Shown here: piece after piece, positions 16,106 to 58,226 of the stretch
Position numbering within the stretch: the stretch's first letter is position 1
How the letters are laid out: each line of letters begins with the position of its first letter
DNA from: Planktothrix paucivesiculata PCC 9631
GTDB taxonomy: Bacteria > Cyanobacteriota > Cyanobacteriia > Cyanobacteriales > Microcoleaceae
Direction: 5' to 3'
Length of the DNA: 64,000 nt
Assembly (NCBI RefSeq): GCF_900009265.2
Contig: NZ_LR734998.1
Location: forward strand, 16,241 to 80,240
The notes under the pieces: generated by a model
The model's database searches: none
What the model was told of the DNA's origin: nothing
The model's input: the letters and a program-made list of their open reading frames with translations, nothing else
Translations under genes and position numbers: made by a program

Positions 16106-16130
16106 GGGTTATGGGTAATTAACAGTTAAC

Positions 16131-16181
16131 TAATAGCTAATAACTAATAACTAATAACTGATGACTGATAACTGATGACTG
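16131..16181. repeat. Degenerate heptamer tandem repeat (TAATAAC/TGATGAC)
   Basis: Seven heptamers run in register: TAATAGC, TAATAAC three times, TGATGAC, TGATAAC, TGATGAC. Unit variants alternate, which suggests slippage within a diverging array. It ends three bases before the stop codon of the coiled-coil gene at 16184. Confidence 0.85.
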
Positions 16182-16183
16182 TT

Positions 16184-16765: not shown

Positions 16766-16811
16766 AGAACTGGGAAAAATAAAAAATCGGGCAATTAATT
16801 GATTCTAAGAT

Positions 16812-18176
16812 TTTATAACACAAGTCTGGGAGCTTGAAAACAAGCGTGTCTTCAGACCACCAGATCAAAAGCGACCCAGGGAAATTTATTCCCCTGTGAA
16901 TATTTCCTAATCTATGTTAACATAAGTTAGGTCGAAAAAAGGAGATTTCTATGATAGTTCTGGAATTCAAAGTTAAAGGCAAACCCCATCAATACAAAGC
17001 GATTGATCAAGCAATTCGCACAACCCAATTCATTCGTAATAAAGCGATTCGGTATTGGATGGATAATTCAAGAGAATTAAAAGTTGATAAATTTGCCTTA
17101 AACAAATATTCCACAACTCTTAGAAAGGAATTTCCCTTTGTTGCCGACCTAAATTCAATGGCAGTCCAATCCGCCGCCGAGCGAGGATGGACTGCCATTG
17201 GTCGTTTTTACGATAATTGTAAGAAAAGGATTTCTGGTAAAAAAGGATATCCCAAATTTCAGAAAGATTGCCGTTCTGTTGAATATAAAACATCGGGATG
17301 GAAGTTACACCCCACTAAAAGACAGATTACCTTTACCGATAAAAATGGGATTGGTAAAGTTAAATTGTTGGGGAAGTGGGATCTCCATACTTATAATACA
17401 AAAGACATAAAACGAGTGCGTTTAATTCGTCGTGCCGATGGATATTACGCTCAGTTTTGTCTAAACATTACCGTCGCCGATGTTCAACCGAAAACTGGTA
17501 AAGAGATAGGACTTGATGTTGGTATTGAGTCATTTTACACAGACTCAAATGGTTATCAAGAAACGAATCCTAAGTTTCTGAGAAAGGCTGAACAATCAAT
17601 CAAGCAATCTCAGAGACAAATCTATAAGAAAGTTAAGGGTTCATCAGGGCGACGGAAAGCTAGAAAAGTTTACGCCAAAAAACACTTAAAAGTAAGTAGA
17701 CAACGGAATGAACACGCAAAGAGAATTGCGCGTAACGTATGCACATCTAACGATGTAGTCGTCTATGAAGATTTAAGTGTTAGAAATTTAGTTAAAAACC
17801 ATTGTTTAGCTAAATCAATTAGTGATGCAAGTTGGTATTTGTTTCGGAAATGGATAGAGTATTTTGCAGCTAAGTTTAATAAATTGGCAATTCCGGTTGC
17901 ACCCCATTACACTTCGCAGAAATGCAGTAATTGTGGGGTAATAGTAAAAAAATCTCTATCAACCCGCACCCATATTTGTAATTGTGGATGTGAGTTACAT
18001 AGAGATACAAATGCTGCAATTAATATTCTAAATCTTGGGAAACAAACTAGGGATGGGCAATCCCGAAGTAACGCTAATGGACTAGAAACCTCTACTCTAC
18101 TTGGGGAAACCCTGGCGGAGCAAGTATCTAGGTTGAAGTTAGAATCGAGCCTGTCTTCAGACGGTGAGAGTGTCAA
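16812..18176 (+). mobile_element. IS200/IS605-family element carrying only tnpB
   Basis: There are no terminal inverted repeats and no Y1 transposase gene. The left end has a subterminal hairpin (GGGAA at 16879-16883, TTCCC at 16889-16893), and the right end a small hairpin around GTCTTCAGAC near 18153-18162. Boundaries were placed by comparison with the decayed relative at 55236-55686: similarity runs from about TTTATAA (16812) and on the other side to TGTCAA (18176). Exact ends are uncertain by several bases. Confidence 0.8.
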
Positions 18177-18180
18177 CTAA
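16951..18180 (+). CDS. tnpB: TnpB, RNA-guided nuclease of IS200/IS605 family
   Basis: This 409-residue TnpB is the transposon-encoded ancestor-type relative of Cas12. Family members cleave DNA next to a short motif, using an omega RNA from the element's right end as guide. The RuvC residues are all present: Asp189 in IGLDVG, Glu272 in VVYEDLSV and Asp351 in HRDTNAAINI. The zinc ribbon is present as Cys324, Cys327, Cys342 and Cys344/346. The N-terminus (about 1-180) is the usual recognition part. The start is ATG 16951 with AAAGGAG eight bases upstream. The C-terminal 40 residues after the RuvC Asp are poorly structured and overlap the element's right end, as usual. No tnpA is nearby, so mobility would need a transposase elsewhere. 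Confidence 0.93.
   Translation: MIVLEFKVKGKPHQYKAIDQAIRTTQFIRNKAIRYWMDNSRELKVDKFALNKYSTTLRKEFPFVADLNSMAVQSAAERGWTAIGRFYDNCKKRISGKKGYPKFQKDCRSVEYKTSGWKLHPTKRQITFTDKNGIGKVKLLGKWDLHTYNTKDIKRVRLIRRADGYYAQFCLNITVADVQPKTGKEIGLDVGIESFYTDSNGYQETNPKFLRKAEQSIKQSQRQIYKKVKGSSGRRKARKVYAKKHLKVSRQRNEHAKRIARNVCTSNDVVVYEDLSVRNLVKNHCLAKSISDASWYLFRKWIEYFAAKFNKLAIPVAPHYTSQKCSNCGVIVKKSLSTRTHICNCGCELHRDTNAAINILNLGKQTRDGQSRSNANGLETSTLLGETLAEQVSRLKLESSLSSDGESVN
18030..18176 (+). ncRNA. Predicted omega RNA of TnpB (3' end of element)
   Basis: In known TnpB systems the guide RNA scaffold overlaps the 3' end of tnpB and ends at the right end, with the guide taken from flanking DNA. Here the last part of tnpB reaches the right-end hairpin (around 18153-18162), and the same hairpin shape is kept in the decayed relative at 55236-55260. 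The 5' limit is a guess. This is inference from family behaviour, not from a visible RNA signal. Confidence 0.35.
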
Positions 18181-18196
18181 ATATTGGTAAAATCTG

Positions 18197-21100
18197 TTAG
18201 ATCTGATTAAAATACTGTTCAATATGAACTTTCAGAATTTCTAAGTTTAGTTTAATGCTCTGAAATAATTCGGAACAGAGGGTAATATTCTGCTGTTCTA
18301 CGGCATCTTCTAGTTGATAGGCGAGTTGAGAAATCATTGTTGCCCCCACATTACCACTAGAACCCTTGAGCCGATGGGCATATTGGTGTAGGACTGTGAA
18401 ATTCTGGCAGGCGATCGCTTCTTGAATTTCCATAAAATCCTGTTCGCTTCGGTCTATATAAACCTTTAATAGCTTTTGTTGAAACTCTTTTTTACCTCCC
18501 GAAATTCTTTGGAGTCGTTCTATATTTAAGGGATAATTTTCAGAGGAGAATGTTGCCATTGGAGCCGCTGTGAATAAGGAAGGGAGAGAAATGTCAGACT
18601 TGTGATTTTCTTGATGAATAATATAAGTCCATTTCATTAAAGTTGCCGCTAATTCCTCCTCTTGGACGGGTTTACTCAGATAATCGTCCATTCCAGCCGC
18701 TAAACATTTTTCCCGATCGGTGGGTAGGGCATGGGCGGTAAGGGCGATAATAATGGTATGGTGATCAGTTTCTTGTTGTCGGATTTTTTGAGTAGTGGCA
18801 TAACCATCTAATTGGGGCATCTGACAATCCATAAACACAATATCATATTGTTTTTGATGCAAAATCTCTAGGGCTTCCAGACCATTATTCGCTAGATCGG
18901 CTTCATATCCCAAGAGACTCAGTTGATTTAAAATCACTTCTTGATTAATTAGATGATCTTCAGCTAAAAGAATCCTTAACTGGGGTTTAGATGGGGTTAA
19001 GAATTTGTCATCCCAGACAATTCTAGCTTGAGATTGTTGTTGGATATTCGATGAAATCTGGATCGCCATGGTTTTTAAGATCGCATCAAATAAACGAGAA
19101 GCCCTAACAGGTTTAATTAAATAACTGGCTATACCTTTATCTAATAGGTTTTCGGCTTTATCTCGGTGATTGTTCCGGGTCATTAAGACTAATTTTGTTG
19201 AGGATAAATTGTGATCTTTTTGGATAATATCAGTAATATTATTTGAATAAAAAGTTAATAATTTTTGATCGAAAATCGCGATATCATAGGGTTTTCCCAG
19301 GGTTCCTGCTTGGCCCAATAAAGTTAATGCTGATTCTGTATCCATGGCTTCATCTAACTCTATTCCCCAGGATTGAGTTAAAAAACGAATCGATTGACGA
19401 ACTGCACTACTGCGATCAGCAACTAATAATTTTAAATTGATTAAACTAGGGGGGACAACTCGAGTAGGTTTGGTTTCTCCGATTAAAAATTGAGCGGTAA
19501 ACCAAAATATTGATCCTTTACCGACTCTACTTTCAACCCCAATCTCACCGCCCATTAAATCAACTAATTGTTTAGAAATGACTAACCCTAATCCTGTCCC
19601 TCCATACTGACGGGTGGTGGAAGCATCCAATTGGGAAAAACACTGGAAAAGCTTATCTTTTTCTTCCGCAGCAATCCCAATACCAGTATCGGAAATTTCA
19701 AACCGTAATCGGGTTGTATGGGACGTATGAGAAAGTTGATTCACCCGGACGACGATTTCTCCGGCGGGGGTGAATTTAATCCCATTTCCTAATAAGTTTA
19801 ATAGAATTTGGCGTAAACGACCCGGATCTCCGCGTAACTGACGGGGTACATTAGTATCAACAATAATAGCGAGTTCTAATCTTTTTTCTTCTGCCTGAGT
19901 TGCCACCCAATCAACAACGGTTTCTAAACAATTTTCCAAATCAAAATCTAGTGTTTCTAGTTTGACTTCGATCGCTTCTAATTTAGAAAAGTCAAGAATA
20001 TCATTAATAATTGCCAATAAATGTTCCGCACTCATGCGAATTCCGTTAACAAAATTATGTTGTTTGGGAGTTAATTCGGTTTTTAATAATAATCCTGCCA
20101 TCCCTAAAACTCCATTCATAGGAGTGCGGATTTCATGACTCATATTGGCCAGAAATTGAGACTTAATCCGGGCATTCTCTAAGGCGGCTTCCCGAGCTTC
20201 TACTAATTCATCAATTCGATCTGCTGCAATCACCACACCCCCAATTTGTTGATTGGATTCATACCAAGGATGAATCGCCCAGCGAATAATACTTTTTTTA
20301 CCATTGGCATCATAAAATATATCTTCAGAATTGGAAATAATCTTTCCTTTTAATCCTTTTTTAAAGGCTTTTTTCCAAGTGTAAGGCATTTGAGGAAACA
20401 CTTTTGAATCAGACTGTTTAAGGGAAGAAAGTTGTTGTTTTAATCGGACTAAACCAAAATCGGATAACCATTTATCACTGTAGGCAATATAGCTCATTTC
20501 TCGATTAAACATGGCCATGGCTACGGGAGCATGGGTAATAATTTGTCTGAGTTGTTGACTTTCTCTTTCGATCGCATCTTCTACTTGTTTGCGTTCTGTA
20601 ATATCTCGACCGGTTCCATACATTAATCCAGTCTGGGCAACTCTAACACAATTCCAAGCAATCCATTTATAGGAATTATCTTGACAACGAAGTTGGGTTT
20701 CAAAGGAAAAGATCAGAGCTTCTTGAGTATTTTCTTCACTAATAGATTGTTCAACGGAACTTAAATGATCGGGATGAACTAGGGAGGTAAAGCAGGTTTT
20801 TTGGAGTTGTTGGGGAGTAAAACCCAGAATTTTTTCTACGGAGGGACTTACCCGTTTAAATAGTAAATTTCGATCAACAATAATTAGCATATCAACGGAT
20901 AATTCAAAAAAGCGATCGCGTTCTAACTCTAATTGTTTGCGATCGGTAATATCTTCAATCACCGCAATACCATAGCGTTTTTCCTCCCTTTGATAATAGG
21001 GAGATTTATCTAACCATGATCCTAGGGAAACTGTTAAATTAATCCAGACAATTGAGCCATTTTTATGAATATAACGTTTCTCGATTGAATAACTGGAAAT

Positions 21101-22018
21101 TTCTTGATTAATCAGGTTTTTAAATAACAATAAATCTTTATTAATATCCTCGGGATGGGTCAGATCGGTTAACCTATATCTTAATAGTTTTTCTCGGGGA
21201 TAACCCAAAATATCACATAATTTTTGATTGACTTTTAGCCATTTTTGGGATATGGAAATATGACCTATGCCCACAGCAGCTTGTTCAAAGGTATCTCTAA
21301 ATAGCTTTTCTTGGGCATGGGTTTGGGCTATTTGCAAGGCTAACTGTTGATCTAATTTTTGCATTAAATATCTGGCGAAAATAGATCCTAAAATTCCTAG
21401 TCCGGTTACGGCAAACATGGATAGCCATGTTAATTGAATCTGATCATTTTGATTCTTTCTACGTTCCTCAATACTCAGTTCTTCTTCGTCAATTAATTGA
21501 TAAATCTCCTGGCGAGTAATCTGCATTTGTTCCCCCATCTCCAGTAAAAGATTTTGTGAATTTGCTGACTGCTGGGGGGATTTAACTGGAGATTTGATTG
21601 TATTTAAGTATACTTTAAAAAGTGCATTAGATTTATCAATAGACGTTTGCAGAGTTTTTAGTTTTTGAATTGTATTCGGATTATCTTTGGCTAAATCTCT
21701 CATTTCATTCAAGGAAATAAGTAGATTTTTAGTTGCTTTTTCGTGACTGTCTAAATATTTTTTTTGACCCGTTAACCCATAATCTTTGACAACAACTTCT
21801 GTGGTCAAAACTTGCGTTAGCAATTCTTGAGCTTGGTTTTTGACAAGATAGGTATGGTAAACTCTGTCTCTAGCTTCTTGTGCTTGGTATTGAAATGTGG
21901 CTGCGATCGCTAGACCAATGATTAAACTAGATATGGGAATCACAGCAATCAGACTGGCGCGATGACGTTGGATAAACCTTAGCCACTTCGGTAAGGAATC
22001 GGTAAAATCTGTATTCAT
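18197..22018 (-). CDS. CHASE3-PAS hybrid kinase with two receivers and HPt
   Basis: This is a 1273-residue membrane phosphorelay protein that carries the whole relay in one chain. Rough order: first helix (23-43), CHASE3 extracytoplasmic domain (to about 200; contains [18 protein letters not shown]), second helix, three PAS domains (about 238-610), HisKA with [15 protein letters not shown], ATPase domain ([22 protein letters not shown]), first receiver (about 860-985), second receiver (about 1015-1135; [15 protein letters not shown]) and HPt with His1215 in HRLKGSSGN. The first receiver keeps an Asp ([10 protein letters not shown]) and Lys (LIKPVR) but lacks the usual MPxMDG, so it is divergent. 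The layout resembles BarA/ArcB-type kinases. No partner regulator is adjacent and the signal is unknown. Confidence 0.95.
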
Positions 22019-33420: not shown

Positions 33421-34521
33421 ATGATTAAGTCTGATTCAATTCTAATTGTGGATGATGAACCAGATGTTTTTGATGTTTTTGAGGGTATCTTATTCCGAGA
33501 AGGATATCAATTACATTATGCTTCCAATGGATTTGAGGTGTTTAAATTCTTAGAATCAAGTTTGCCCGATCTGATTTTATTAGATGTGATGATGCCCGAT
33601 AGTAATGGCATGGATATTTGTCGGAAAATCAAACAAATTCCCGAATGGAAACCGATTCCTATTATTATGATCACAGCACTGAATTCTAAAGAAACCCTAG
33701 CTAAATGTTTAGAAGCTGGGGCGGAAGATTTTATTGGAAAACCGGTTAGTGCTTTAGAAGTTAGAGCTAGAGTTCGTTCAATGCTCCGACTCAAAAAACA
33801 GCATGATGAGTTAGAAAAGTCTCAACAAAAACTAGAAGAATTGCTACAATTGCGTGAGGATATGGCTTATTCCATAGTTCACGATCTGAGAAATCCAGTA
33901 TTTGTAATTTCATTATCTTGTGAACTACTAACCCTAACAAATTTAACGGAAAAACAAGCCCACAAAGTTCATCAAATTGCTCACTCAGGAAGACAGTTAA
34001 ATAATCTGATTAATTCTTTACTGTTGATGGCTAAACTAGAATCAGGTAAGGAATTACTGAATTCTAAACCTGTTAATCTGTCCTTGATAGTTGAAACCGT
34101 TATTAATGAATTTGAAGCCCAAATTATCAAAAAGGAGATAAAGATTACTGCTAAAATTCCTACAGTAAAACGGTTAGTAGTTGCCGATGCTGATTTAATC
34201 AAGCGAGTTATTGAAAATTTACTTGATAATGGGATTAAATTCTCTCCTTCAAACAGTGAAATTTTAATAGAAGTTGAATATCCAGTCAATACAAATACCG
34301 TTAAAGTTCATGTTCAAGATTCAGGGAAAGGAGTGAAAGATGAACTCAAGGAAAGTATTTTTAAAAAATATGAAACCGGTCAACGCTTTGAAGATGTGGC
34401 TCAAACCGGATTAGGATTAGCCTTTTGTAAAATGGTCATTGATGCCCATTTTGGTTGCCTTTCTATTCGCGATAACCAACCCCAAGGATCAATTTTTACG
34501 ATTGAATTAAAAGCAGAATAA
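33421..34521 (+). CDS. Receiver-histidine kinase, soluble
   Basis: This 366-residue cytoplasmic protein has an N-terminal receiver (about 5-125; VDDEPD, phosphoacceptor in LILLDVMMPDSNGMD, Lys in FIGKPVS), a short coiled coil, HisKA with His in SIVHDLRNPVFV, and an ATPase domain with RVIENLLDNGIKFSP, VQDSGKGVKDE and TGLGLAFCKMV. The His-Asp-Leu-Arg-Asn-Pro H-box is a variant common in cyanobacteria. With the receiver first and no membrane part, it probably passes a signal from another kinase. It stands alone, 154 bp after lnt. Confidence 0.93.
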   Translation: MIKSDSILIVDDEPDVFDVFEGILFREGYQLHYASNGFEVFKFLESSLPDLILLDVMMPDSNGMDICRKIKQIPEWKPIPIIMITALNSKETLAKCLEAGAEDFIGKPVSALEVRARVRSMLRLKKQHDELEKSQQKLEELLQLREDMAYSIVHDLRNPVFVISLSCELLTLTNLTEKQAHKVHQIAHSGRQLNNLINSLLLMAKLESGKELLNSKPVNLSLIVETVINEFEAQIIKKEIKITAKIPTVKRLVVADADLIKRVIENLLDNGIKFSPSNSEILIEVEYPVNTNTVKVHVQDSGKGVKDELKESIFKKYETGQRFEDVAQTGLGLAFCKMVIDAHFGCLSIRDNQPQGSIFTIELKAE

Positions 34522-34583: not shown

Positions 34584-34736
34584 ATATTACCCCAGGACTT
34601 ACGCAAGGACGCTATATATAGCGCATTCAGGATCAGGCGATCGCTTGATTCAGACAGAAGGGCGATATGCGTCCGGCACGCTACGCGAGCGCGCTTATAA
34701 AAAGAGAATTAATCTGTGTTTGAATTGATAAGTAAA

Positions 34737-35553
34737 CTAAATAAAAGAAAGCTTGAGAGAGGGATGTTTAAGCTCTTGGCTCAGGTAATCTGCTAACAAA
34801 CTAGCTTTTAACTGATAGACAGTTTGAGAAACTTTCTTAGCCATACGAGTCAGAAAAACCCAAACTAATAAAGCGCAAGCAATGTGGTTTTTTTGAATAC
34901 TCGCTTTACGGCATTGGCAAGATTCTATCCCCGTTAATTGTTTAATTTCTCGGTGAAATTCCTCAATTTTCCATCGCAGTTTACATTGAGAGATGACTTC
35001 ATCTATTGAAGACTGATTTAAATCATTTGTAGCTACATATTCCGTTCTGTTGGCAGAAACAGTTACCCGAAATAGTTTAACTTTTTTATCTCTAGGGAAT
35101 TTATTTATTTTGATTAGCTTTCCCTGTTTTTCTTCAATTTCAGACCAAATTAACTGTTCAATAGGCTGATATTTTTTTTGACCTCCTGTATCATCAACCA
35201 GCCGGTTTTTTTTGAGCGGAACATAATAAATTTTCCCTAAATTATCAATCAAAGCCATTAACTTTTGCGCTGCATATATATTGACGGCGGACAAGTTCAA
35301 TTTTCGAGGAAAATCTTTTGTCGAGTACCGTATCATCAAAAACTAAACAAGCTTCGGGATGGCTCTGAAGTTCTGAATGCACTTTTTCCCAAATCACTTC
35401 GGGTGTTAAGTTTTCTGAATTCAAGTAACGATTAATTGTATCATGGCTAAACTCTTGAATATGTTCAGCGAAGTTGGTTAGAGTATAATTGATTTGGCTA
35501 CTCAGGAGATATTGGCAATAGTATAGATAATTGATGCTCATATTTTTGGGCAT
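34737..35553 (-). pseudogene. DDE transposase of outer IS copy, 209-bp deletion and frameshift
   Basis: This matches the 341-residue transposase at 35699-36724, but 209 bp are missing at the codons after VRRQY (near 35280). That removes the residues up to the second catalytic Asp (KVLMDSWY) and breaks the frame. The N-terminal part (MPKNMSINYLYYC) and the C-terminal part with the catalytic Glu (EEFHREIKQL) remain. A few base changes near the deletion junction distinguish it from the inner copy. Confidence 0.92.
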
Positions 35554-35588
35554 AGATTCTGATGCTATTTTAACATTCCTTATTCTCC

Positions 35589-36868
35589 CAGGACTTACGC
35601 AGTGACGCTATATGTAGCGTACTAAGGAGTTAGCGATCACTAACCCAAAAGAAATCTGGAAACGGAGAATAAGGAATGTTAAAATAGCATCAGAATCTAT
35701 GCCCAAAAATATGAGCATCAATTATCTATACTATTGCCAATATCTCCTGAGTAGCCAAATCAATTATACTCTAACCAACTTCGCTGAACATATTCAAGAG
35801 TTTAGCCATGATACAATTAATCGTTACTTGAATTCAGAAAACTTAACACCCGAAGTGATTTGGGAAAAAGTGCATTCAGAACTTCAGAGCCATCCCGAAG
35901 CTTGTTTAGTTTTTGATGATACGGTACTCGACAAAAGATTTTCCTCGAAAATTGAACTTGTCCGCCGTCAATATAGCGGCAATGAACATCGAGTGATTCG
36001 AGGAATTGGTTTAATAAGCTGTATTTATGTAAATCCTGAAACCGGATCCTATTCAGTGATTGATTATCGAATTTACGATCCAGATGGGGATGGTCACACC
36101 AAGCTAGATCATGTAGCAGATATGCTGAATGATGTCGTCTTTAAAAAAAAGATTCCTGTAGCGAAAGTGCTTATGGATAGTTGGTACGCAGCCCAAAAGC
36201 TAATGGCTTTGATTGATAATTTAGGGAAAATTTATTATGTTCCGCTCAAAAAAAACCGGCTGGTTGATGATACAGGAGGTCAAAAAAAATATCAGCCTAT
36301 TGAACAGTTAATTTGGTCTGAAATTGAAGAAAAACAGGGAAAGCTAATCAAAATAAATAAATTCCCTAGAGATAAAAAAGTTAAACTATTTCGGGTAACT
36401 GTTTCTGCCAACAGAACGGAATATGTAGCTACAAATGATTTAAATCAGTCTTCAATAGATGAAGTCATCTCTCAATGTAAACTGCGATGGAAAATTGAGG
36501 AATTTCACCGAGAAATTAAACAATTAACGGGGATAGAATCTTGCCAATGCCGTAAAGCGAGTATTCAAAAAAACCACATTGCTTGCGCTTTATTAGTTTG
36601 GGTTTTTCTGACTCGTATGGCTAAGAAAGTTTCTCAAACTGTCTATCAGTTAAAAGCTAGTTTGTTAGCAGATTACCTGAGCCAAGAGCTTAAACATCCC
36701 TCTCTCAAGCTTTCTTTTATTTAGTTTACTTATCAATTCAAACACAGATTAATTCTCTTTTTATAAGCGCGCTCGCGTAGCGTGCCGGACGCATATCGCC
36801 CTTCTGTCTGAATCAAGCGATCGCCTGATCCTGAATGCGCTATATATAGCGTCCTTGCGTAAGTCCTG
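35589..36868 (+). mobile_element. IS4-superfamily element (inner copy), apparently intact, 1280 bp
   Basis: The ends are CAGGACTTACGCAGTG (35589) and CCTTGCGTAAGTCCTG (ending 36868). It lies in opposite orientation inside the outer copy, just upstream of the latter's transposase, with a 5-bp target duplication TCTCC at 35584-35588 and 36869-36873. Both ends carry subterminal palindromes (GCTATATGTAGC; GCTATATATAGC). Family placement rests on the transposase and is tentative at subgroup level (IS701-like). Confidence 0.92.
35699..36724 (+). CDS. DDE transposase, IS4-superfamily (IS701-like)
   Basis: This is a 341-residue transposase for the element around it. Catalytic residues are the first Asp in LVFDDTVLDKRF, the second in VAKVLMDSWYAAQ and Glu in WKIEEFHREIKQLTG, with the YREK-like spacing of IS4-type enzymes. 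After the Glu comes CQCRKASIQKNHIACALLVW, a helix-rich end common to IS701-like proteins. The frame is complete. The start could be ATG 35699 or ATG 35711 (MSINYLYYC). Recent activity is supported by perfect ends and clean target duplications. Confidence 0.88.
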   Translation: MPKNMSINYLYYCQYLLSSQINYTLTNFAEHIQEFSHDTINRYLNSENLTPEVIWEKVHSELQSHPEACLVFDDTVLDKRFSSKIELVRRQYSGNEHRVIRGIGLISCIYVNPETGSYSVIDYRIYDPDGDGHTKLDHVADMLNDVVFKKKIPVAKVLMDSWYAAQKLMALIDNLGKIYYVPLKKNRLVDDTGGQKKYQPIEQLIWSEIEEKQGKLIKINKFPRDKKVKLFRVTVSANRTEYVATNDLNQSSIDEVISQCKLRWKIEEFHREIKQLTGIESCQCRKASIQKNHIACALLVWVFLTRMAKKVSQTVYQLKASLLADYLSQELKHPSLKLSFI

Positions 36869-36950
36869 TCTCCGTTTCCAGATTTCTTTTGGGTTAGCGA
36901 TCGCTAACTCCTTAGTACGCTACATATAGCGTCACTGCGTAAGTCCTGTA

Positions 36951-37006
36951 CCCATTACCCATTACCCATTACCCATTACCCATTACCCATTACCCATTAC
37001 CCATTA
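36951..37006. repeat. Heptamer tandem repeat, (CCCATTA)8
   Basis: Eight exact copies of CCCATTA end 21 bp before the start of the CBS-GAF kinase. The outer IS copy is inserted directly at the array edge, so its target duplication TACCC is part of the repeat. Copy number may vary between strains and sits where it could affect expression of the downstream gene. Confidence 0.95.
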
Positions 37007-37027
37007 CCTACCCCAAATCTTAATTTT

Positions 37028-40000
37028 ATGTCTAGTGATTCTGATAATTTGTTTATTTCTCCTTTACAAAAGGCTATCACTACTGATCCATTGACCGTGA
37101 TGCCAGAAACAATATTAAGTGAGGCGATCGCAATTTTCAACCAATCTCAAACCACCTGTTTATTAACTCCCAATTCCTTAGCCATAAATCAGGGGAAAAC
37201 CTGTCTAATTGTTACCGTAGATCACCGACCCATAGGAATATTAACCCATCGGGACATTGTGCGTTTAATTGCTCAACAAGTTGATCTCAAAAGTTTGACC
37301 GTCAGGGAAGTTATGACTCAACCAGTAATTACCCTGCAACAAACAGAATTTAGCCATTTAAGCACAACTTTAAACCTACTCCAAAAGCATAAAGTTCGCC
37401 ATTTACCCTTAGTTAATCCCGATGGTAAATTAGTCGGTTTACTCACCCATCGAGATTTAAAAAATGCCCTAGAACCTACGGATTTATTAAAACTACGAAC
37501 CATTGAGGAGGTAATGACTTCCAAGGTTGTACAAGCACCTGTTAATATTTCCCTCTTAAAATTGGCTGAGTTAATCAATTCTGCCCAGGTGAGTTGTGTG
37601 GTTTTAGTTGAGGAAAAAATCTGCAATCAACAGCCATTAAAAATTCCCATGGGTTTACTAACGGAAGGAGATATTATCAAGTTTCAAGCATTAGGTTTAG
37701 ATTGGAACCTAGAAGCCAAAAGCTTCATGAGCACCCCCGTCTTTTGCCTAAAGCCCAATGATACATTATTAGCGGCTCATCTGTTAATGCAGAAACACCA
37801 TATTAATCGAATACCGATTGTTGACGATCGCGGGGAACTCAGAGGAATTATTACTCCGACGAGCATTTTGCAAGGAATTAACCCGATTGATTTATTAGAA
37901 TTAGTGAATGTATTGCGACAAAAAGTTAATAATTTAGAAGTCCAAAAACTACAATTACTTCAAAGTCAAAATACTAAACTTGAAGAAAAAATTCAAGAAC
38001 GAACAAATGCTTTAAAACGGGCTAATCAAAAATTGAAAGATGAGATTCAAGAACGAAATTTGATCGAAGCTAAAATGGCTTTACAGGCTTCTCTTTTAGA
38101 TCAGGTACAGAATGCTATTATTGCCACGGATTTAGAAGGAATAATAATTTATTGGAATCAATATGCTCAAACTTTATATCAGTGGACAGCAAAAGAAGCC
38201 CTAGGTAATAATATTATTAATTTTTTTGTTCCTCTGGATCAACAGGATTTAGCCGAGGAAATTGTTTATGAAGTTATCAACAAAGGATATTGGGAAGGAG
38301 AATTTACCACCTCGCGTAAAGATGGTAGCACTTTACCGATTCATGTTTTTGATACTTTAATTCGAGATCAAGCGGGAAATCCCATCGGTTTAGTCGGGAT
38401 TAGTTTTGATATTAGCGAACGCAAAAAAGCAGAACAGCAATTACACCAACGAGTTCAAAGGGAACGGCTATTTTACCAAACCGCCCTGCATATTCGTCAA
38501 TCTCTGAATTTAACCGATATTCTGAATAATGCCGTGGTTGATATTCGGACAATTCTCAATTGTGATCGGGTTTTAGTCTATGAATTTGATTCTACATTTA
38601 ATGGAACAATTGTGGCGGAATCGGTGGGAGAGGGCTGGACTTCCTGCTTAGGAATGTATTTGGAAGATATTTGTTTTAAAGCCGGAGGTGCTTTGGATTA
38701 TTTGCAAGGTAAAAAAATTGCTATTAATAATATTCAAACAGCAAATTTATCAGAATGTCATGAACAATTATTAACTCGACTTCAGGTTAAATCTAATTTA
38801 GTTGTGCCGATTTTAATTCAAGATCAGAATCGAGAAAATGGAAATTTTATTTGGGGATTGTTAATCGCACATCAATGTTCTTCTCCTCGCAATTGGCAGC
38901 CCAGTGAATTAGAATTATTAGATGAAATTGCGGTGCAATTGTCAATTGGTATTCAACAATCCCAACTTTATCAAACGGCGGAAATGGAAATCAAAGAACG
39001 ACAAAAAATTGAACATAAGTTAAGAATTCTGAATCAACAATTAGAAACTAGAATTTTAGATCGAACTGCTAAATTAGAACGTCAAGAACGCAAATCCCGT
39101 TTATTTGCCGAAATCGCTTTAAAAATTCGTCAATCTTTAGATATTGACCAAATTTTACAAACTACTGTAACCGAAGTTCAAAATATTTTAGGGTGCGATC
39201 GCGTGTTAATTTATCGAGTCTTTGACAATGGAACAGGAAAGACGATCGCAGAAAGTGTATTACCCGGATGGAATTCCATTCTCAATGTTGACTTTCCCGA
39301 AGAAGTTTTTCCCCTAGAATATCAACAACTTTATTCTAATAGAACTGTAAAAGCTATTGCAGATATCTACCAAACCTATCAAGAGACTACTCCCTGTTTA
39401 GTTGAATTTTTACAAGAATGGAAGATTAAAGCTAAATTGATTGTTCCGATTATTCAAAATAATATTTTTTGGGGATTTATGATTGCCCATCACTGTGTTT
39501 CTCCTCGAAAATGGACGGATTTTGAGATTGAACTGATGCGAGAAATTGCCGATCAAGTGGGTGTGGCTTTAGAACAAGCTCAATTAGTAGAAACCCTGCG
39601 GGAAAGAGAACAATTTATTGAAAGTATTGCCGATAGTAGTCCTAATATTTTATATCTCTACGATGTAGAGCAGAATCGCAGTATTTATAATAGCCGATCC
39701 TTAACGAACATTTTAGGATATACCTCGCTAGAATTATCTATAATGGGGGATAACTTTTCAATGCTTTTTCATCCTGATGATCAAGAAACAGTCATTAAAC
39801 ACCTAGAAGAAACCGCTCAAATGAGTGATCGAGAGATTAGTTACGTGGAATATCGCATCCAGCATAAAAATAAGGAATGGTTATGGTTTTCCAGTCATGC
39901 TACTGTGTTTAAACGAGATTCATCAGGAAACACCCAACAAATTTTAGGCGTGGCTCAAAATATTAGCGATCGCAAACAGGCTGAAGATAATCTTAAACGT

Positions 40001-41581
40001 CAGTTAGCGGCTGTAGAGGCTTCTATTGATGGAATTTCTATTTTAAAAAATGAAGAATATATTTATGTGAATAATGCCCACTTAAAACTATTTGGTTATA
40101 GTAGTCCCGAAGAATTATTAACTAAAAATTGGCGAGTCCTTTATACTTTGGAGGTAGTAAAATGGTTTGAAAAAGATATATTTCCCCTGTTAAAACAACA
40201 AAAATTCTGGCGGGGAGAAACCATCGGTTTAAGAAAAGATGGTACAACTTTTAATCAAGAGGTTTCCTTTACCGTCACCGAAGATGGGGATTATATTTGT
40301 ATTTCTCAAGATATTAGTGAACGCCAAGCTGCCCTACACGAACGCCAACAAGCTGAAATTCAACTGCGTCAAACCAATGAACAATTGGCGATCGCCAACG
40401 CCGAACTTGCTCGGGCTTCCCGTCTGAAAGATGAATTTCTAGCAAATATGAGCCACGAACTCAGGACGCCCCTGAACTCAATTTTAGGAATGTCAGAAGT
40501 CCTACAAGAACAAACCTTTGGAGAACTCAATGAACAACAAAATCAAGCCCTAAAGCTAATTTATAGAAATGGAAAATACCTACTCGAACTAATTAACGAT
40601 ATTCTCGATCTCTCCAAAATTGAAGCCGGAAAATTAGACCTAGAATGCTCTCCCGTTTCTGTGAATGAACTCTGTCAACACAGTTTAAGTTTTGTCAAAC
40701 AACAGGCTCACCAAAAAAATATTCGCCTCAGTTATCAGATTGAAGATGTCACCGAAGCCCTGAATGTAGATGAACGTCGCATCCGTCAAGTTTTAATTAA
40801 TTTGCTCAATAATGCGGTAAAATTTACCTCTGAGGGTGGGAGGGTGCGCCTGGAAGTCAGAGGAGATATCGATGAAAAAAGGGTGTGTTTTTCCGTCATT
40901 GATAATGGAATTGGTATTGCTCTCGAAGATCAAGCCCGATTATTTCAAGTGTTTGTACAAATTGATAGCCGTTTATCCCGACGTTATGAAGGCACAGGTT
41001 TAGGATTAGTTTTAGTTAAAAAACTCGTGGAAATGCACGGCGGGACGGTTACCCTTGACAGTCAACCCGGAAAAGGCAGTTGCTTTACCGTCGCCCTCCC
41101 TTGGAATCCTGGGAGAGAATTGCCGACGCTGACTCCAGCGAAACTTTTAGACAGATCAGCCTGGTCGGGGAACACCCCTCGACAATCAAAACGTCCTTTA
41201 ATTTTGCTGGCTGAAGACAATCCCGACAATATTCAAACCCTGCTTAACTACCTACAGGCGAAGGGATTTGATCTCGAAGTCGCCAAAAATGGGATCGAAG
41301 CAGTTCAAAAAGCGGTTAGTCTGCATCCAGATTTGATTTTAATGGATATTTCCATGCCAGAAATGGACGGCTTGGAAGCCATGCGCCAGATTCGGGCTAA
41401 CCCACAACGGGCTACCCTACCCATCATTGCCCTCACTGCTTTTGCAATGGCTGGGGACAGGGAAAAATGTTTAGCAGCCGGAGCGAATGAATATCTGGCT
41501 AAACCCGTACAAATTCGGCAGTTAGTTCAGTTAATTCAGAGTTTTCTGTGGGAAAATCAGAGGAATAATCATGAACAATAG
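37028..41581 (+). CDS. CBS-PAS-GAF hybrid kinase with cyanobacteriochrome-like GAF
   Basis: This is a soluble 1517-residue hybrid sensor kinase. Four CBS motifs (about 10-290; each ends like GILTHRDIVRL) usually bind adenine nucleotides. Then come coiled coil, PAS (about 350-465), GAF1 (480-645), GAF2 (690-850), two PAS domains (860-1110), HisKA with [16 protein letters not shown], ATPase (VIDNGIGI, GTGLGLVLVK) and a receiver with Asp in LILMDISMPEMDG. GAF1 has the marks of a bilin-binding cyanobacteriochrome: the motif Asp547-Ile-Cys549-Phe, canonical Cys577-His578 and the following LQVKSNLVVPIL. The 28-residue spacing of the two cysteines equals that of TePixJ (Cys494/Cys522). GAF2 keeps a Cys (790) followed by Leu. 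Bilin binding is inferred. It overlaps the binding-protein gene by 11 bp. Confidence 0.93.
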   Translation: MSSDSDNLFISPLQKAITTDPLTVMPETILSEAIAIFNQSQTTCLLTPNSLAINQGKTCLIVTVDHRPIGILTHRDIVRLIAQQVDLKSLTVREVMTQPVITLQQTEFSHLSTTLNLLQKHKVRHLPLVNPDGKLVGLLTHRDLKNALEPTDLLKLRTIEEVMTSKVVQAPVNISLLKLAELINSAQVSCVVLVEEKICNQQPLKIPMGLLTEGDIIKFQALGLDWNLEAKSFMSTPVFCLKPNDTLLAAHLLMQKHHINRIPIVDDRGELRGIITPTSILQGINPIDLLELVNVLRQKVNNLEVQKLQLLQSQNTKLEEKIQERTNALKRANQKLKDEIQERNLIEAKMALQASLLDQVQNAIIATDLEGIIIYWNQYAQTLYQWTAKEALGNNIINFFVPLDQQDLAEEIVYEVINKGYWEGEFTTSRKDGSTLPIHVFDTLIRDQAGNPIGLVGISFDISERKKAEQQLHQRVQRERLFYQTALHIRQSLNLTDILNNAVVDIRTILNCDRVLVYEFDSTFNGTIVAESVGEGWTSCLGMYLEDICFKAGGALDYLQGKKIAINNIQTANLSECHEQLLTRLQVKSNLVVPILIQDQNRENGNFIWGLLIAHQCSSPRNWQPSELELLDEIAVQLSIGIQQSQLYQTAEMEIKERQKIEHKLRILNQQLETRILDRTAKLERQERKSRLFAEIALKIRQSLDIDQILQTTVTEVQNILGCDRVLIYRVFDNGTGKTIAESVLPGWNSILNVDFPEEVFPLEYQQLYSNRTVKAIADIYQTYQETTPCLVEFLQEWKIKAKLIVPIIQNNIFWGFMIAHHCVSPRKWTDFEIELMREIADQVGVALEQAQLVETLREREQFIESIADSSPNILYLYDVEQNRSIYNSRSLTNILGYTSLELSIMGDNFSMLFHPDDQETVIKHLEETAQMSDREISYVEYRIQHKNKEWLWFSSHATVFKRDSSGNTQQILGVAQNISDRKQAEDNLKRQLAAVEASIDGISILKNEEYIYVNNAHLKLFGYSSPEELLTKNWRVLYTLEVVKWFEKDIFPLLKQQKFWRGETIGLRKDGTTFNQEVSFTVTEDGDYICISQDISERQAALHERQQAEIQLRQTNEQLAIANAELARASRLKDEFLANMSHELRTPLNSILGMSEVLQEQTFGELNEQQNQALKLIYRNGKYLLELINDILDLSKIEAGKLDLECSPVSVNELCQHSLSFVKQQAHQKNIRLSYQIEDVTEALNVDERRIRQVLINLLNNAVKFTSEGGRVRLEVRGDIDEKRVCFSVIDNGIGIALEDQARLFQVFVQIDSRLSRRYEGTGLGLVLVKKLVEMHGGTVTLDSQPGKGSCFTVALPWNPGRELPTLTPAKLLDRSAWSGNTPRQSKRPLILLAEDNPDNIQTLLNYLQAKGFDLEVAKNGIEAVQKAVSLHPDLILMDISMPEMDGLEAMRQIRANPQRATLPIIALTAFAMAGDREKCLAAGANEYLAKPVQIRQLVQLIQSFLWENQRNNHEQ

Positions 41582-42575
41582 TAGAATTCCAGCCAAAAAA
41601 TCCCGTAAATTGATTCATTTTTTTTCGTTGGGAATGTTAATCTGTATCGGTTTAGGAATATTAGTTAGTTGTTTTGAGCAACCGACAATACCCCTGCTTG
41701 TAGGCGTTAATAATTGGCCGGGTTTCGCCCCTTTATATTTAGCCGAGGAGTTGGGTTACTATCAAAATACTTCGATTGATATTGTTGATTATCCCTCTAC
41801 AACGGAAGTTAGTAACGCGCTGCGTAGTGGGAATTTACAAGCAGGAGGGATGAGCATTGATGAAAACTTAATCCTGGCGGAAACCTTTCCAGAGGTTAGG
41901 GCAATTATGTTGATAGATGTATCCAATGGTGCAGATGTAATTATCGGGAAACCGGAGTTACAAACCCTAGCAGATATTAAAGGAAAAAAAGTCGGGGTGG
42001 AAAACACCGCATTAGGGGCTTATATACTGAGTCGGGCACTTGATAAAGCCGGACTTTCTCTACAGGATATTACTGTGGTTTCCCTGGATTTCTCGGAACA
42101 TGAAGCTGGGTTTAAACAGGGTGAAGTTGATGCCGTTGTTACCTTTGAACCGGTTCGGTCTAATTTACTGGCAACTGGTGCTAAAGTCTTATTTGATACC
42201 ACCAAAATACCGGGGGAAGTAGTGGATGTGTTGGTGGTACGTCAGGATACCTTAGAAACTCAATCTAAGGATTTAGAGCAGTTAGTGCGGGGCTGGTTTA
42301 TGGCATTAGATTATTTAAAAAAAGAACCGGAAAATGCGGCTAAAATTATGGCAAGACGGGGAGGAATCACAGCGAAGGAATTTTTGGATTCTCTCAAATT
42401 ACTGAGTTTTTTTACACCCACAGAAAATCAAAAACTTCTCTCGCAAACCGATCCGAGTATGGTTAATTCTGCTAATAAATTATCTAAATTAATGCAGGAA
42501 AAGAAACTACTACAATCAAATATAGATTTTTCCTCATTATTAGATGCTCGTTTTTTCACTCAATTGAATCAGTAA
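41571..42575 (+). CDS. Periplasmic substrate-binding lipoprotein (NMT1/SsuA-like), orphan
   Basis: This 334-residue protein has a basic N-terminus, a hydrophobic segment and lipobox LVSC (Cys near residue 37), so it should be a lipoprotein facing the periplasm. The body is a type-II binding protein of the NMT1/SsuA/TauA-like group: VGVNNWPGFAPLYLAEELGY, then LADIKGKKVGVENTALGAYI and VDAVVTFEPVRSNLLATGAK. Relatives bind sulfonates, nitrate/cyanate, riboflavin or thiamine precursors; the ligand here is open. No ABC permease or ATPase gene is adjacent. Its gene overlaps the upstream CBS-GAF kinase by 11 bp and is followed by a membrane kinase, so a sensory role is more likely than transport. Confidence 0.88.
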   Translation: MNNSRIPAKKSRKLIHFFSLGMLICIGLGILVSCFEQPTIPLLVGVNNWPGFAPLYLAEELGYYQNTSIDIVDYPSTTEVSNALRSGNLQAGGMSIDENLILAETFPEVRAIMLIDVSNGADVIIGKPELQTLADIKGKKVGVENTALGAYILSRALDKAGLSLQDITVVSLDFSEHEAGFKQGEVDAVVTFEPVRSNLLATGAKVLFDTTKIPGEVVDVLVVRQDTLETQSKDLEQLVRGWFMALDYLKKEPENAAKIMARRGGITAKEFLDSLKLLSFFTPTENQKLLSQTDPSMVNSANKLSKLMQEKKLLQSNIDFSSLLDARFFTQLNQ

Positions 42576-42739: not shown

Positions 42740-44428
42740 ATGAAACGTTTTGCTTTTAGTCTACCTCTGCGCGTCACTATTCCCAGTTTACTTCTATTTT
42801 TAAGTAGTGGACTAGGTTTATATAGTTTTATAACAGAAGTAAACGCAACCTACAAACGTCAGGAAAACAGAGTTGTAGAACAGGCAGATTTTTATAGTGA
42901 AAAAACTGTTGGCCTCTTAGAATTTATTTTACGGCGAGTTAACATAGATAATAAAAGTTTAGATGGGGCAAAGTTGGTGATTGGTGAAACGGGAGAAGAA
43001 CCTAACTTACAATTATCAGCTTTCCTAGATGAAAATAATATTGTTATTTTTTCCAATTACTATCAATTACAACAAAAACCCATAATTAATACAAGTTTTT
43101 CCTATCTTTACCCCCAGATTCAACAGGCTAAACAAACCAAAGTTACAGAAAAAGTTTGGTCAGATAATCGGCAAATTTTAAAGGTGATTACCCCCGTCAT
43201 ACTTCCCCCAAAACCCAATCAATTGCGTCCTCAAGTGGGAACCCTACTCTCAATTTATGATCTAACTCAAACCAAAAAACAAGCCTATCAAGATGCCTTA
43301 AACCGTTCTTTACAAATGAATGCAGTGGTGCTAATTATTTGTTTATTGGTGTGGTTATTTTTTGAAATGACCTTAACCAAAAGAGTCTCGAGGTTGGTAT
43401 TAGTGAGCCAGAATTTAGCTCAGGGAGATTTAAGCGATCGCAGCCGCCTAGAAGGGTCAGATGAATTAGCTCAAATTTCTATAGCATTTGATCAAATGGC
43501 CGAAAAAATTGAACAGGATACCTATAGTTTACAGGAATCTCAAATCGAATTGCAACAAAAAGCCACCGAATTAGAAAAAACTCTCACCCAACTCAAACAA
43601 ACCCAAACCCAATTATTACAAAGCGAAAAAATGTCAAGTTTGGGTCAATTAGTTGCCGGAATTGCCCATGAAATTAATAATCCGGTGAGTTTTATTTTTG
43701 GAAATATCACCTATGCCAAAGAATATACAGATAGCCTACTCCATTTAATTTCCTTATATCAAACCCATTATCCCCAACCTGTCCCCGAAATTCAAACCGA
43801 AATTGATGAATTAGACTTAGAATTTATCACCTCAGACCTCCAGAAAATGTTCAATTCTATGCTAACCGGAAGTCAAAGAATTTCCGATATTGTCCTATCC
43901 TTGCGTTCATTTTCCCGTTTAGATGAAGCGGATATTAAAACCATAGATTTACATGAAAATCTTGATAACACCTTGATGATTTTAAAGCATCGTCTCAAAG
44001 CCCAAGCGTCTCGACCAAAAATTAAAATTGTCAAAAATTATGGCAATATTCCCTTAATTCATTGCTATGTCGGTCAACTGAATCAAGTGTTTATGAATAT
44101 TTTTATTAATGCCATTGATGCCCTAGAAACAGTCCAACAAAACAGCCCACCCCAAATTTCCATCCATACGGATATTGTCACCGATTCCCAACCAAAAAAA
44201 TGGGTACAAATTCAAATTTCTGATAATGGCTCAGGCATGGCTGAAACCGTTCGGAGTCGAATTTTTGAACCCTTTTTTACCACCAAACCCGTTGGTCGCG
44301 GGACAGGCATGGGTTTAGCCATCAGTTATCAAATTATTGTCGAAAAACATCAAGGTCAACTGCTGTGTACCTCTACACCTGGAGAAGGGAGTACCTTTAT
44401 CATTACCTTACCCATTCGTAATTCGTAA
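42740..44428 (+). CDS. Membrane histidine kinase with extracytoplasmic sensor and HAMP
   Basis: This 562-residue kinase has a first helix at about 11-31 (VTIPSLLLFLSSGLGLYSF), an extracytoplasmic domain of about 165 residues with no family I recognise, a second helix (MNAVVLIICLLVWLFFEMTL), HAMP, a coiled coil (SQIELQQKATELEKTLTQLK), HisKA with LVAGIAHEINNPVSFIFGN and an ATPase domain with ISDNGSGMAE, FEPFFTTKPVGRGTGMGL. No receiver is attached. The preceding gene encodes a periplasmic binding lipoprotein, which could present its ligand to this sensor domain as in LuxP/LuxQ-type pairs. The stop codon lies within the heptamer repeat at 44414, which also codes the last residues IRNS. Closely similar kinase cores are encoded at 48569 and 55827. 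Confidence 0.94.
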   Translation: MKRFAFSLPLRVTIPSLLLFLSSGLGLYSFITEVNATYKRQENRVVEQADFYSEKTVGLLEFILRRVNIDNKSLDGAKLVIGETGEEPNLQLSAFLDENNIVIFSNYYQLQQKPIINTSFSYLYPQIQQAKQTKVTEKVWSDNRQILKVITPVILPPKPNQLRPQVGTLLSIYDLTQTKKQAYQDALNRSLQMNAVVLIICLLVWLFFEMTLTKRVSRLVLVSQNLAQGDLSDRSRLEGSDELAQISIAFDQMAEKIEQDTYSLQESQIELQQKATELEKTLTQLKQTQTQLLQSEKMSSLGQLVAGIAHEINNPVSFIFGNITYAKEYTDSLLHLISLYQTHYPQPVPEIQTEIDELDLEFITSDLQKMFNSMLTGSQRISDIVLSLRSFSRLDEADIKTIDLHENLDNTLMILKHRLKAQASRPKIKIVKNYGNIPLIHCYVGQLNQVFMNIFINAIDALETVQQNSPPQISIHTDIVTDSQPKKWVQIQISDNGSGMAETVRSRIFEPFFTTKPVGRGTGMGLAISYQIIVEKHQGQLLCTSTPGEGSTFIITLPIRNS

Positions 44429-55826: not shown

Positions 55827-58226
55827 ATGAACCCCACCTGGATGATCTCACAACAACTGGTTGTCATAACTGCATTCATGTCCCATGGTTCCTGTTACCT
55901 TTGGGAATCTAAATTAATCGGACTTCATCTGGTCTCGGATTTATTCACTGCGATCGCTTATTTTTCCATTCCTATCGCCTTAATGTACTTTGTTAATCGG
56001 CGTAAAGATCTCCCCTTCCCTAATGTTTTAATCTTGTTTAGTGCGTTCATTTTTGCCTGTGGACTCAGCCATTTAATGTCGATTTTCACCCTTTGGTATC
56101 CGGTATATTGGTTAGCCGGAGGATTAAAAGCAATGACGGCCCTGATTTCAATTTTTACCGCTTGTACAATTATTCCTTTAGTTCCCCAACTTTTACAACT
56201 TAAAACCCCTAAAGAACTTGAAGCACTGAACCAATTATTAAATAAAAGTCAAAAATATTATCAAAAATCTCAACAAATGTTGGAATTAATTATGAATACA
56301 ATTCCCCAACGAATTTTTTGGAAAGATCGAAATTCCGTCTTTCAAGGGTGTAATTTACAAGTGGCTTTAGATACGGGATTAAAGTCTCCTGAAGATATTA
56401 TTGGTAAAACCGATTATGATTTTTTTTACAGTTTAGATGAAGCTGAATTTTATCGAAAAATTGATCAAGAGGTCATGGAAACGAATACCCCGCGCTATCG
56501 AATTATCGAAACTCAATTAAGACCTGATGGAAAAATTATTTGGTTAGAAACCAATAAAATTCCCCTTCATGATTCTGAGGGAAATGTGGTGGGAATATTA
56601 GGAACATACGAGGATATTACAGAGCGGAAATTAGCGGAAGAATTATTGGCACAATCGGGAACTCGATTTCGACAATTGGCTCAACAGGAAAAACTGATTA
56701 ATCATTTGGCAAATCAAATTCGTAACTCTTTAGATTTGAAAACAATTTTAGAAACAACTGTTTTACAGGTTTGGGAGTTAATGAAGGTAGATCGATGTTA
56801 TTTTTGTTGGTATCGACGGCCAGAAATGGGTTTTCATTCAGATTATAAAAATTTATCTCAATCCTATTCTAATGCGGCTTATTGGGAAATTGTTGCTGAA
56901 GCTAAAGATCCGGCAATTCCTAATATTATAGGTCGATATCCTATAGAAGATGGGGGGATGGGATCTGAGAAAAATTTAGATTTTAAAATAGGACGAATTG
57001 ATCAGATTGATCATGTACCTGAATCCCAAAGAAAGTCATTTTTACTCCAGTTTGGCTTAATATCGGTTCTGTCTCTCCCCATTCAAACCCAAACGGGAGA
57101 AATCGGGGTTTTAATTTGTGGAAATCATCAGGAACCCCGGTGTTGGAGTGATTCTGAAGTTGAATTATTACAGGCTGTCACGGCGCAAGTGGCGATCGCT
57201 ATTAACCAAGCCCAACTCTATAATCAAACCCGAGAAGCCGCAGCTTTAGCTAGAGCTCAAACCCTAGAATTAGAAGCGACTTTAAATAAATTACGACAAA
57301 CTCAAGCCCATTTAATTCAAACTGAAAAGATGTCTTCTTTAGGTCAGTTAGTGGCAGGGGTTGCCCATGAAATTAATAATCCGATTAATTTTATTTATGG
57401 AAATGTTGATTATGCAGCCCAATATCTGGAGGATTTATTGAATTTAGTATCCCTCTATCAAGAGCATTATCCCGATCCAGTTTCTGATATTCAAGAAGTG
57501 ATTGAAACCGTAGATTTAGATTTTTTACAACGAGATTATCCCAAACTATTAAGTTCCATGAAAGTCGGGGCGAGTCGCATTCAGCAAATTGTTTTATCCC
57601 TGAGAAACTTTTCGCGTTTAGATGAAGCAGATGTTAAACAGGTGAATTTACATGAGGGCTTAGAAAATACATTATTGATTTTACAAAATCGTTTATCAGA
57701 AACCGGAGAAAGACAAAAAATTCAGGTGATCAAAAACTATGGGGAATTGCCCTTAGTCCATTGTTATGCAGGTCAGATGAATCAAGTATTTATGAATTTA
57801 CTCACTAATGCTATTGATGCAATTCAGGAGCGAATCGTAGAACAAAATCAAGAAATTATTTCTAGTCTGAATCCTAATGATGTAGAGTTATATTCTGAAG
57901 ATGATATCGGTTTTAATTCATTGAATTGTTGGAAACCCACGATTACGATTACTACAGAAGTCATGGAGGATAATCAGGTTTTAATTATCATTGCTGATAA
58001 TGGGATGGGAATGACGGAAACCGTTAAAAATAAATTATTTGATCCATTTTTTACCACAAAACCCGTGGGAAAAGGAACTGGCTTAGGATTAGCTATTAGT
58101 TATCAAATAGTTGTGGAAAGACATCTGGGTAAGTTAAAGTGTTCTTCTCAAGTTAAACAAGGATCGGAATTTATGATTGAGATCCCAATTCAACAACATC
58201 AAAATCTGACTCTTGATCAAAACTAA
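55827..58226 (+). CDS. Ethylene-receptor-like histidine kinase (EBD-PAS-GAF-HisKA-HATPase)
   Basis: This is a 799-residue membrane kinase. The N-terminal three helices (about 30-115) match the ethylene-binding domain of plant ETR1 and of Synechocystis Etr1. The residues aligned to ETR1 Asp25, Tyr32, Ile35, Pro36, Cys65 and His69 are Asp38, Tyr45, Ile48, Pro49, Cys78 and His82, all at the same offset of 13; motifs are VSDLFTAIAYFSIP and CGLSHLM. Cys and His would hold the Cu(I) that binds ethylene. Then follow PAS (about 155-270), GAF (about 300-470), coiled coil, HisKA with LVAGVAHEINNPINFIYGN and ATPase (IADNGMGMTE, FDPFFTTKPVGKGTGLGLAI). The GAF lacks a clear bilin cysteine motif. Ethylene binding is inferred from residue conservation. 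Confidence 0.93.
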   Translation: MNPTWMISQQLVVITAFMSHGSCYLWESKLIGLHLVSDLFTAIAYFSIPIALMYFVNRRKDLPFPNVLILFSAFIFACGLSHLMSIFTLWYPVYWLAGGLKAMTALISIFTACTIIPLVPQLLQLKTPKELEALNQLLNKSQKYYQKSQQMLELIMNTIPQRIFWKDRNSVFQGCNLQVALDTGLKSPEDIIGKTDYDFFYSLDEAEFYRKIDQEVMETNTPRYRIIETQLRPDGKIIWLETNKIPLHDSEGNVVGILGTYEDITERKLAEELLAQSGTRFRQLAQQEKLINHLANQIRNSLDLKTILETTVLQVWELMKVDRCYFCWYRRPEMGFHSDYKNLSQSYSNAAYWEIVAEAKDPAIPNIIGRYPIEDGGMGSEKNLDFKIGRIDQIDHVPESQRKSFLLQFGLISVLSLPIQTQTGEIGVLICGNHQEPRCWSDSEVELLQAVTAQVAIAINQAQLYNQTREAAALARAQTLELEATLNKLRQTQAHLIQTEKMSSLGQLVAGVAHEINNPINFIYGNVDYAAQYLEDLLNLVSLYQEHYPDPVSDIQEVIETVDLDFLQRDYPKLLSSMKVGASRIQQIVLSLRNFSRLDEADVKQVNLHEGLENTLLILQNRLSETGERQKIQVIKNYGELPLVHCYAGQMNQVFMNLLTNAIDAIQERIVEQNQEIISSLNPNDVELYSEDDIGFNSLNCWKPTITITTEVMEDNQVLIIIADNGMGMTETVKNKLFDPFFTTKPVGKGTGLGLAISYQIVVERHLGKLKCSSQVKQGSEFMIEIPIQQHQNLTLDQN

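Follow-up and report, generated by a model that had tools for sequence, protein, structure and literature searches.

The DNA analysed here, called the window, is a stretch of 64,000 nucleotides from Planktothrix paucivesiculata PCC 9631 (genome G000; 6.15 Mb in 184 contigs). It encodes a hybrid histidine kinase of 1517 amino acids which, judged from its sequence, is best read as carrying a two-Cys blue-type cyanobacteriochrome GAF domain (GAF1) and an RcaE-type green/red one (GAF2) in tandem, behind a quartet of CBS domains. Pfam recognized CBS, PAS, GAF, HisKA, HATPase_c and Response_reg families in the open reading frame (ORF). The elements on which this reading depends are:

37028..41581, plus strand: hybrid kinase ORF, 1517 amino acids, CBSx4-PAS-GAF1-GAF2-PAS-PAS-HisKA-HATPase-REC (ORF list, translation, Pfam)
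37055..37882, plus strand: CBS quartet, residues ~10-285 (Pfam, PDB sequence search, motif reading)
38465..38992, plus strand: GAF1, DXCF-type cyanobacteriochrome GAF, residues ~480-655 (PDB sequence match, tree, AlphaFold2/Foldseek)
38666..38677, plus strand: D547-I-C549-F550 motif, C549 being the putative second Cys (D, C and F in 7/7 orthologs)
38756..38761, plus strand: C577-H578, putative canonical bilin Cys (Cys in 7/7 orthologs)
39095..39613, plus strand: GAF2, RcaE-type cyanobacteriochrome GAF, residues ~690-862 (PDB sequence match, tree, Foldseek)
39302..39304, plus strand: E759, equivalent of RcaE E217 (alignment, orthologs)
39395..39400, plus strand: C790-L791, C790 being the putative bilin Cys and L791 the equivalent of RcaE L249 (alignment, orthologs)
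39434..39436, plus strand: K803, equivalent of RcaE K261 (alignment, orthologs)

The ORF has the extent and length given by the first-pass annotation, and D547, C549, C577, H578 and C790 lie where it had placed them (L791 is the Leu of CLVEF). The central observation of that annotation, a DXCF GAF in one chain with a CBS quartet, was confirmed. Pfam domains together with four CBS motifs place the quartet in the same chain, and the sequence matches of GAF1 lie far beyond chance, the best PDB chains being PPHK (3.3e-39) and TePixJ (5.6e-32). In total, 55 distinct PDB sequences matched GAF1 at E<=0.001; the names and titles inspected were those of cyanobacteriochromes, phytochromes and fluorescent derivatives, some reading just "histidine kinase". 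The proposed 28-residue spacing of the two cysteines was borne out, TePixJ C494 and C522 aligning without a gap onto C549 and C577. D547, C549, F550 and C577 are unchanged in all seven orthologs of the genus, the gene of the window being counted among the seven. Of the bilin pocket, D492, C494, C522, H523 and H553 of TePixJ have the identical residue in GAF1 according to the alignment, and TePixJ N535 corresponds to N590 (position C+13). An AlphaFold2 model of GAF1 obtained from 8 sequences (mean predicted local distance difference test, pLDDT, 79.6) retrieved PPHK, miRFP670nano and TePixJ as the best Foldseek matches by E-value. In a quick tree of 95 rows, GAF1 clustered with TePixJ and further DXCF GAFs, 31 rows in all (SH-aLRT, the Shimodaira-Hasegawa-like approximate likelihood ratio test, 92). 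GAF1 thus groups with cyanobacteriochrome GAFs and not with non-bilin GAFs, the outgroup being a single and very distant non-bilin GAF and hence a weak control for this kinship. The motif, the cysteine spacing, the sequence and fold searches and the tree all agree on a DXCF-type cyanobacteriochrome GAF. As a single domain, GAF1 looks like an ordinary member of a described group. The nearest named loci were those of an Oscillatoriales metagenome-assembled genome (88% identity over GAF1), Planktothrix sp. PCC 11201 (85%) and an uncultured Oscillatoriales metagenome-assembled genome (75%).

The top solved match of GAF2 is RcaE (1.3e-59, 204 bits), the next family reaching 118 bits. Foldseek likewise returned RcaE in its Pg state first by E-value, at 59% identity. 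In the quick tree, GAF2 falls into a 27-row set with RcaE (SH-aLRT 98) and a 44-row set at 100; four DXCF domains (L096, L097, L098 and L127) are also included in the 27-row set. The protochromic residues of RcaE are E217, L249 and K261, a numbering whose intervals agree with the RcaE chain. They map onto E759, L791 and K803 of GAF2, and all three are present in 7/7 orthologs of the genus. GAF2 keeps C790 followed by Leu where His is expected, as previously noted, and RcaE itself carries Cys-Leu at this position. Like GAF1, GAF2 looks as a single domain like an ordinary member of a described group. Other members of the genus and of the genome show further variants of this domain. On contig C112 of the same genome, a REC-GAF-HK-REC protein (HK, histidine kinase; L025:894-3335, minus strand) has an RcaE-type GAF with E/L/K in which Asp replaces the bilin Cys, so that a genuinely dark relative of RcaE may be present here. 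Elsewhere in the genus, the paralogs L027 and L028 as well as L148, all from other genomes, are CBS proteins whose RcaE-branch GAF has partly lost the E/L/K triad; in L027 and L028 this is the second GAF, and both also carry a DXCF GAF.

One bilin reductase was found in the genome, and it passes the PcyA model (354 bits versus a cut-off of 206). Phycobilisome-family matches number 12, the six strongest of which were classified: four pass a model of allophycocyanin or C-phycocyanin, two come closest to allophycocyanin without reaching its cut-offs (one just, one well under), and none of these six passes a phycoerythrin model. Because PcyA is the sole bilin reductase found and none of the six passed a phycoerythrin model, phycocyanobilin is the likely chromophore. 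A role as a phycoerythrin switch was considered and judged unlikely, the sole reductase being of the PcyA type and the six classified phycobilisome matches including no phycoerythrin.

In a DXCF GAF, by definition, the canonical Cys holds the bilin and the second Cys adds to C10 (PMC11284453, accessible part); the accessible part of the same source does not settle which residues decide phycoviolobilin formation in GAF1. For GAF1, C577 would hold phycocyanobilin or its isomer phycoviolobilin and C549 would add reversibly to C10, the domain switching between a violet/blue dark state and a photoproduct of longer wavelength. RcaE alternates between green- and red-absorbing states in a protochromic photocycle (PMC8112840), and GAF2, with C790 and E759/L791/K803, may similarly absorb green light when deprotonated and red light when protonated, switching between the two states. 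The protein would then have two photoactive GAFs feeding one kinase, which we regard as probable. The remaining domains of the chain are:

38087..38425, plus strand: PAS domain, residues ~354-466 (Pfam)
39683..40297, plus strand: two PAS domains, residues ~886-1090, the bounds of the second being approximate (Pfam)
40427..41104, plus strand: HisKA, with H1143 inside an MSHELRTP box, and HATPase_c (Pfam, ortholog alignment)
41201..41536, plus strand: C-terminal receiver domain, D1440 being the probable phospho-acceptor (Pfam, ortholog alignment)

With residues 1-860 as query (E<=1e-90), seven of the 10 genomes belonging to the genus gave a match, against none of the 51 others of the family; the match in G052 begins at residue 288. 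The contigs of G048, G051 and G052 are as long as those of L009, L010 and L011, respectively. Pairwise ratios of non-synonymous to synonymous substitution rates (dN/dS) against L009, L010 and G047 were 0.36, 0.25 and 0.22 for GAF1, and 0.20, 0.15 and 0.24 for GAF2. Both GAFs are under purifying selection in these three pairwise comparisons. The orthologs vary in length. Those in G047, G050 and G053 are ~200 amino acids longer than the kinase of the window, and the ortholog at L011:4966-9717, as well as L032, is without CBS3-4 but contains an additional GAF-like stretch, located between the PAS domains.

The CBS quartet may be a module for adenine nucleotides, which would set the response of H1143 and of the receiver D1440. 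Three CBS stretches pass Pfam independently, and G-h-h-[TS] motifs occur four times, at residues 70, 137, 209 and 273. GILTHRD (70), GLLTHRD (137) and GLLTEGD (209) retain the Asp of T-x-x-D, which is replaced by Ser in GIITPTS (273). The motif G-h-x-[TS]-x-x-[DN], the ribose site of CBS repeats, accordingly occurs in three of the four tandem repeats. The PDB sequences matched by the quartet (44 distinct ones) include 7 of AMPK gamma-1, 7 of IMP dehydrogenase and 5 of acetoin-utilization (AcuB-type) proteins. The top solved match, however, is PH1780, an uncharacterized protein, the ligand of a CBS module is not deducible from sequence, and the G052 ortholog (L011) lacks two of the four repeats, which weighs against an adenylate role. 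The quartet might instead be a structural or dimerizing module, or bind a ligand other than adenylates, and the kinase would then sense light alone. We give this alternative, which is compatible with the photosensory part of our reading, somewhat less than an even chance; the T-x-x-D signature and the AMPK, IMP dehydrogenase and AcuB-type matches speak against it. For an adenylate role, we estimate the chances to be about equal either way.

Several observations weigh against the photosensory part of the reading, most of them concerning GAF1. The recovery of the TePixJ pocket was incomplete: H498, W499 and D513 align with G553, G554 and N568, and Q526 falls on L581 when counted on the sequences. 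In TePixJ, H498 and W499 hydrogen-bond the B-ring propionate (PMC6955287). Because their counterparts are Gly-Gly, the GAF1 pocket differs in detail from that of TePixJ, and with H498, W499, D513 and Q526 not kept, the exact colors of GAF1 may deviate from those proposed. Residue 578 is His in five of the seven orthologs and Tyr in two. The GAF1 model drops below a pLDDT of 50 at model residues 75-83, immediately past the DXCF motif, and the group joining GAF1 and TePixJ is drawn open in what is a quick tree, with TePixJ on a long branch. For GAF2, the superposition on RcaE had a root-mean-square deviation of 7.1 in Foldseek, and some other bilin GAFs reached higher TM-scores. The GAF1 points could mean that GAF2 alone is photoactive, GAF1 retaining its cysteines but binding bilin poorly or having one fixed color, and acting as a spacer. 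The unmatched H498, W499 and D513 and the Tyr after the canonical Cys would fit such a role, as would the identity of GAF1, lower than that of GAF2 in 6/6 ortholog comparisons, and its higher dN/dS in two of three. However, the paralogs L027 and L028 share the invariant D547, C549, F550 and C577, and miRFP670nano, which binds bilin, has Cys-Tyr at the same place in the alignment. We consider a spacer role of GAF1 improbable. The converse, that GAF1 is the sole light sensor and GAF2 the dark relative suggested by the first-pass annotation on account of the Leu after C790, is very hard to sustain, as RcaE, the closest solved relative of GAF2, also carries Cys-Leu and all three protochromic residues are retained in GAF2; a degenerate GAF2 was likewise rejected, given the RcaE sequence and Foldseek matches and the E/L/K residues of the orthologs.

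The reading of two photoactive GAFs behind a CBS quartet raises the question of how common the combination is. The CBS quartet and following GAF of a related ORF (residues 1-510 of the L121 ORF, E<=1e-70) were searched in a sample of 386 genomes from the phylum, and 71 of these had matches. Both the CBS and the GAF part were spanned (start <=70, end >=480) by 75 of the 108 matches listed, in at least 53 of the 386 genomes, a lower bound as up to three candidates were scored per genome. A separate search gave 28 matches outside the genus; 26 with a CBS part were fetched, and two without CBS (G358 and G388) were left aside. Cysteines were checked in the fetched loci only. CBS was present in all 26, a GAF with both cysteine positions filled in 22, a strict DXCF motif with canonical Cys in 19, and a Cys-Leu GAF with E/L/K in 10. 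Seven of the 26 combine CBS, a strict DXCF GAF and a Cys-Leu/E-L-K GAF in one ORF. For six of these seven, the tree places the Cys-Leu GAF in a clade of its own, on long branches; the L121 ORF is the only one with the EVF motif of RcaE and GAF2, its domain lying outside the 27-row RcaE set. The exact pairing, in which a close relative of RcaE immediately follows the DXCF GAF in a chain with CBS, was found in this genus only, and a tandem of DXCF and RcaE-motif GAFs without CBS occurs at L078 (G252). The genome itself encodes a second CBS-DXCF-GAF hybrid kinase of 1728 amino acids (contig C112, L022:1222-6405, plus strand).

Thus, the CBS-cyanobacteriochrome kinase architecture is recurrent and common in cyanobacteria, and the idea that the union of CBS and cyanobacteriochrome domains in a single chain is unique was rejected on the genome survey and the fetched loci. 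The first-pass annotation knew of no described protein with this combination. This stands insofar as no description of the fusion was found in the open-access literature, which is weak evidence given that subscription papers were mostly not covered; the rarity it implied does not. The accessible part of PMC8846402 mentions cyanobacteriochromes and CBS domains apart, not as a fusion.

Among known systems, RcaE of Microchaete (Fremyella) diplosiphon (PDB 7ckv/8k9o) is like GAF2 in its Cys-Leu, its E/L/K and a Foldseek identity of 57-59%. Nine ORFs with a GAF near RcaE (L079, L081, L083-L086 and L088-L090; 602-741 amino acids) differ from the kinase studied here in having neither CBS nor a DXCF GAF. 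The TePixJ GAF (PDB 3vv4/4fof/4glq) shares with GAF1 the DXCF motif, Cys-His, the 28-residue spacing and 40-42% identity, but it was deposited as a methyl-accepting chemotaxis protein, and its H498/W499 are Gly-Gly in GAF1. The dual-sensor kinase PPHK of Leptolyngbya sp. JSC-1 (PDB 6oap), the best solved match of GAF1, also has a cyanobacteriochrome GAF in a multi-domain kinase; it has D-Q-Y-F instead of D-I-C-F, and its structure was solved in the green-absorbing state. The L121 ORF of G016 is alike in its four CBS repeats, DXCF GAF with Cys-His, RcaE-motif GAF with E/L/K, HK and REC, and a REC-kinase-like gene adjoins it (the neighbor being judged by reading). Unlike the kinase of the window, its DXCF GAF directly follows the CBS domains and occupies a different branch of the tree, while the RcaE-motif GAF, as stated above, is outside the 27-row RcaE set.

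The kinase gene is surrounded by further signaling genes:

33421..34521, plus strand: REC-HisKA-HATPase protein gene, upstream (Pfam)
41571..42575, plus strand: NMT1/SsuA-like substrate-binding protein gene, downstream, overlapping the kinase gene by 11 bp and with an LVSC lipobox-like stretch by reading (Pfam)
42740..44428, plus strand: HAMP-HisKA-HATPase kinase gene (Pfam)

The binding-protein gene also adjoins the kinase gene in L009, L010, L011 and L029, and the HAMP kinase gene follows it in L009, L010 and L029, its place in L011 being taken by an unrelated minus-strand ORF. In the same four loci only 11-203 bp lie between the kinase gene and the REC-kinase gene upstream of it. In the window, the two genes are separated by two inverted IS701 copies (34593-36948), whose arms of 684 and 312 nucleotides are 100% complementary, the left copy having an internal deletion. 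The hybrid kinase, REC-kinase, binding protein and HAMP kinase may form a shared relay. A tandem array of the heptamer TACCCAT occupies 36949-37010, just 5' of the kinase start codon. Rfam gave no match at the gathering threshold, and a scan of 36700-37100 for consensus promoters and terminators found none. Elsewhere in the window, an ETR1_N (ethylene-receptor-like) PAS-GAF histidine kinase is encoded at 55827-58226, and more two-component, GGDEF and EAL genes at 7522-22018 and 60958-63852.

A tandem of a two-Cys blue and a protochromic green/red GAF would be a compact multi-color input. More speculatively, and in our estimate rather unlikely, the protein could belong to a widespread class of cyanobacterial kinases, absent from the open-access literature searched, in which a CBS quartet gates color vision by energy state. 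In the kinase described here, the tandem GAFs would then cover three bands (blue, green and red) and share the green one, green light reverting GAF1 but driving GAF2 forward, with the gain set by adenylates. Should the quartet indeed bind nucleotides, light color and energy charge would be joined at one kinase, and given the frequency of the architecture among the sampled genomes, many laboratory cyanobacteria would lend themselves to testing this.

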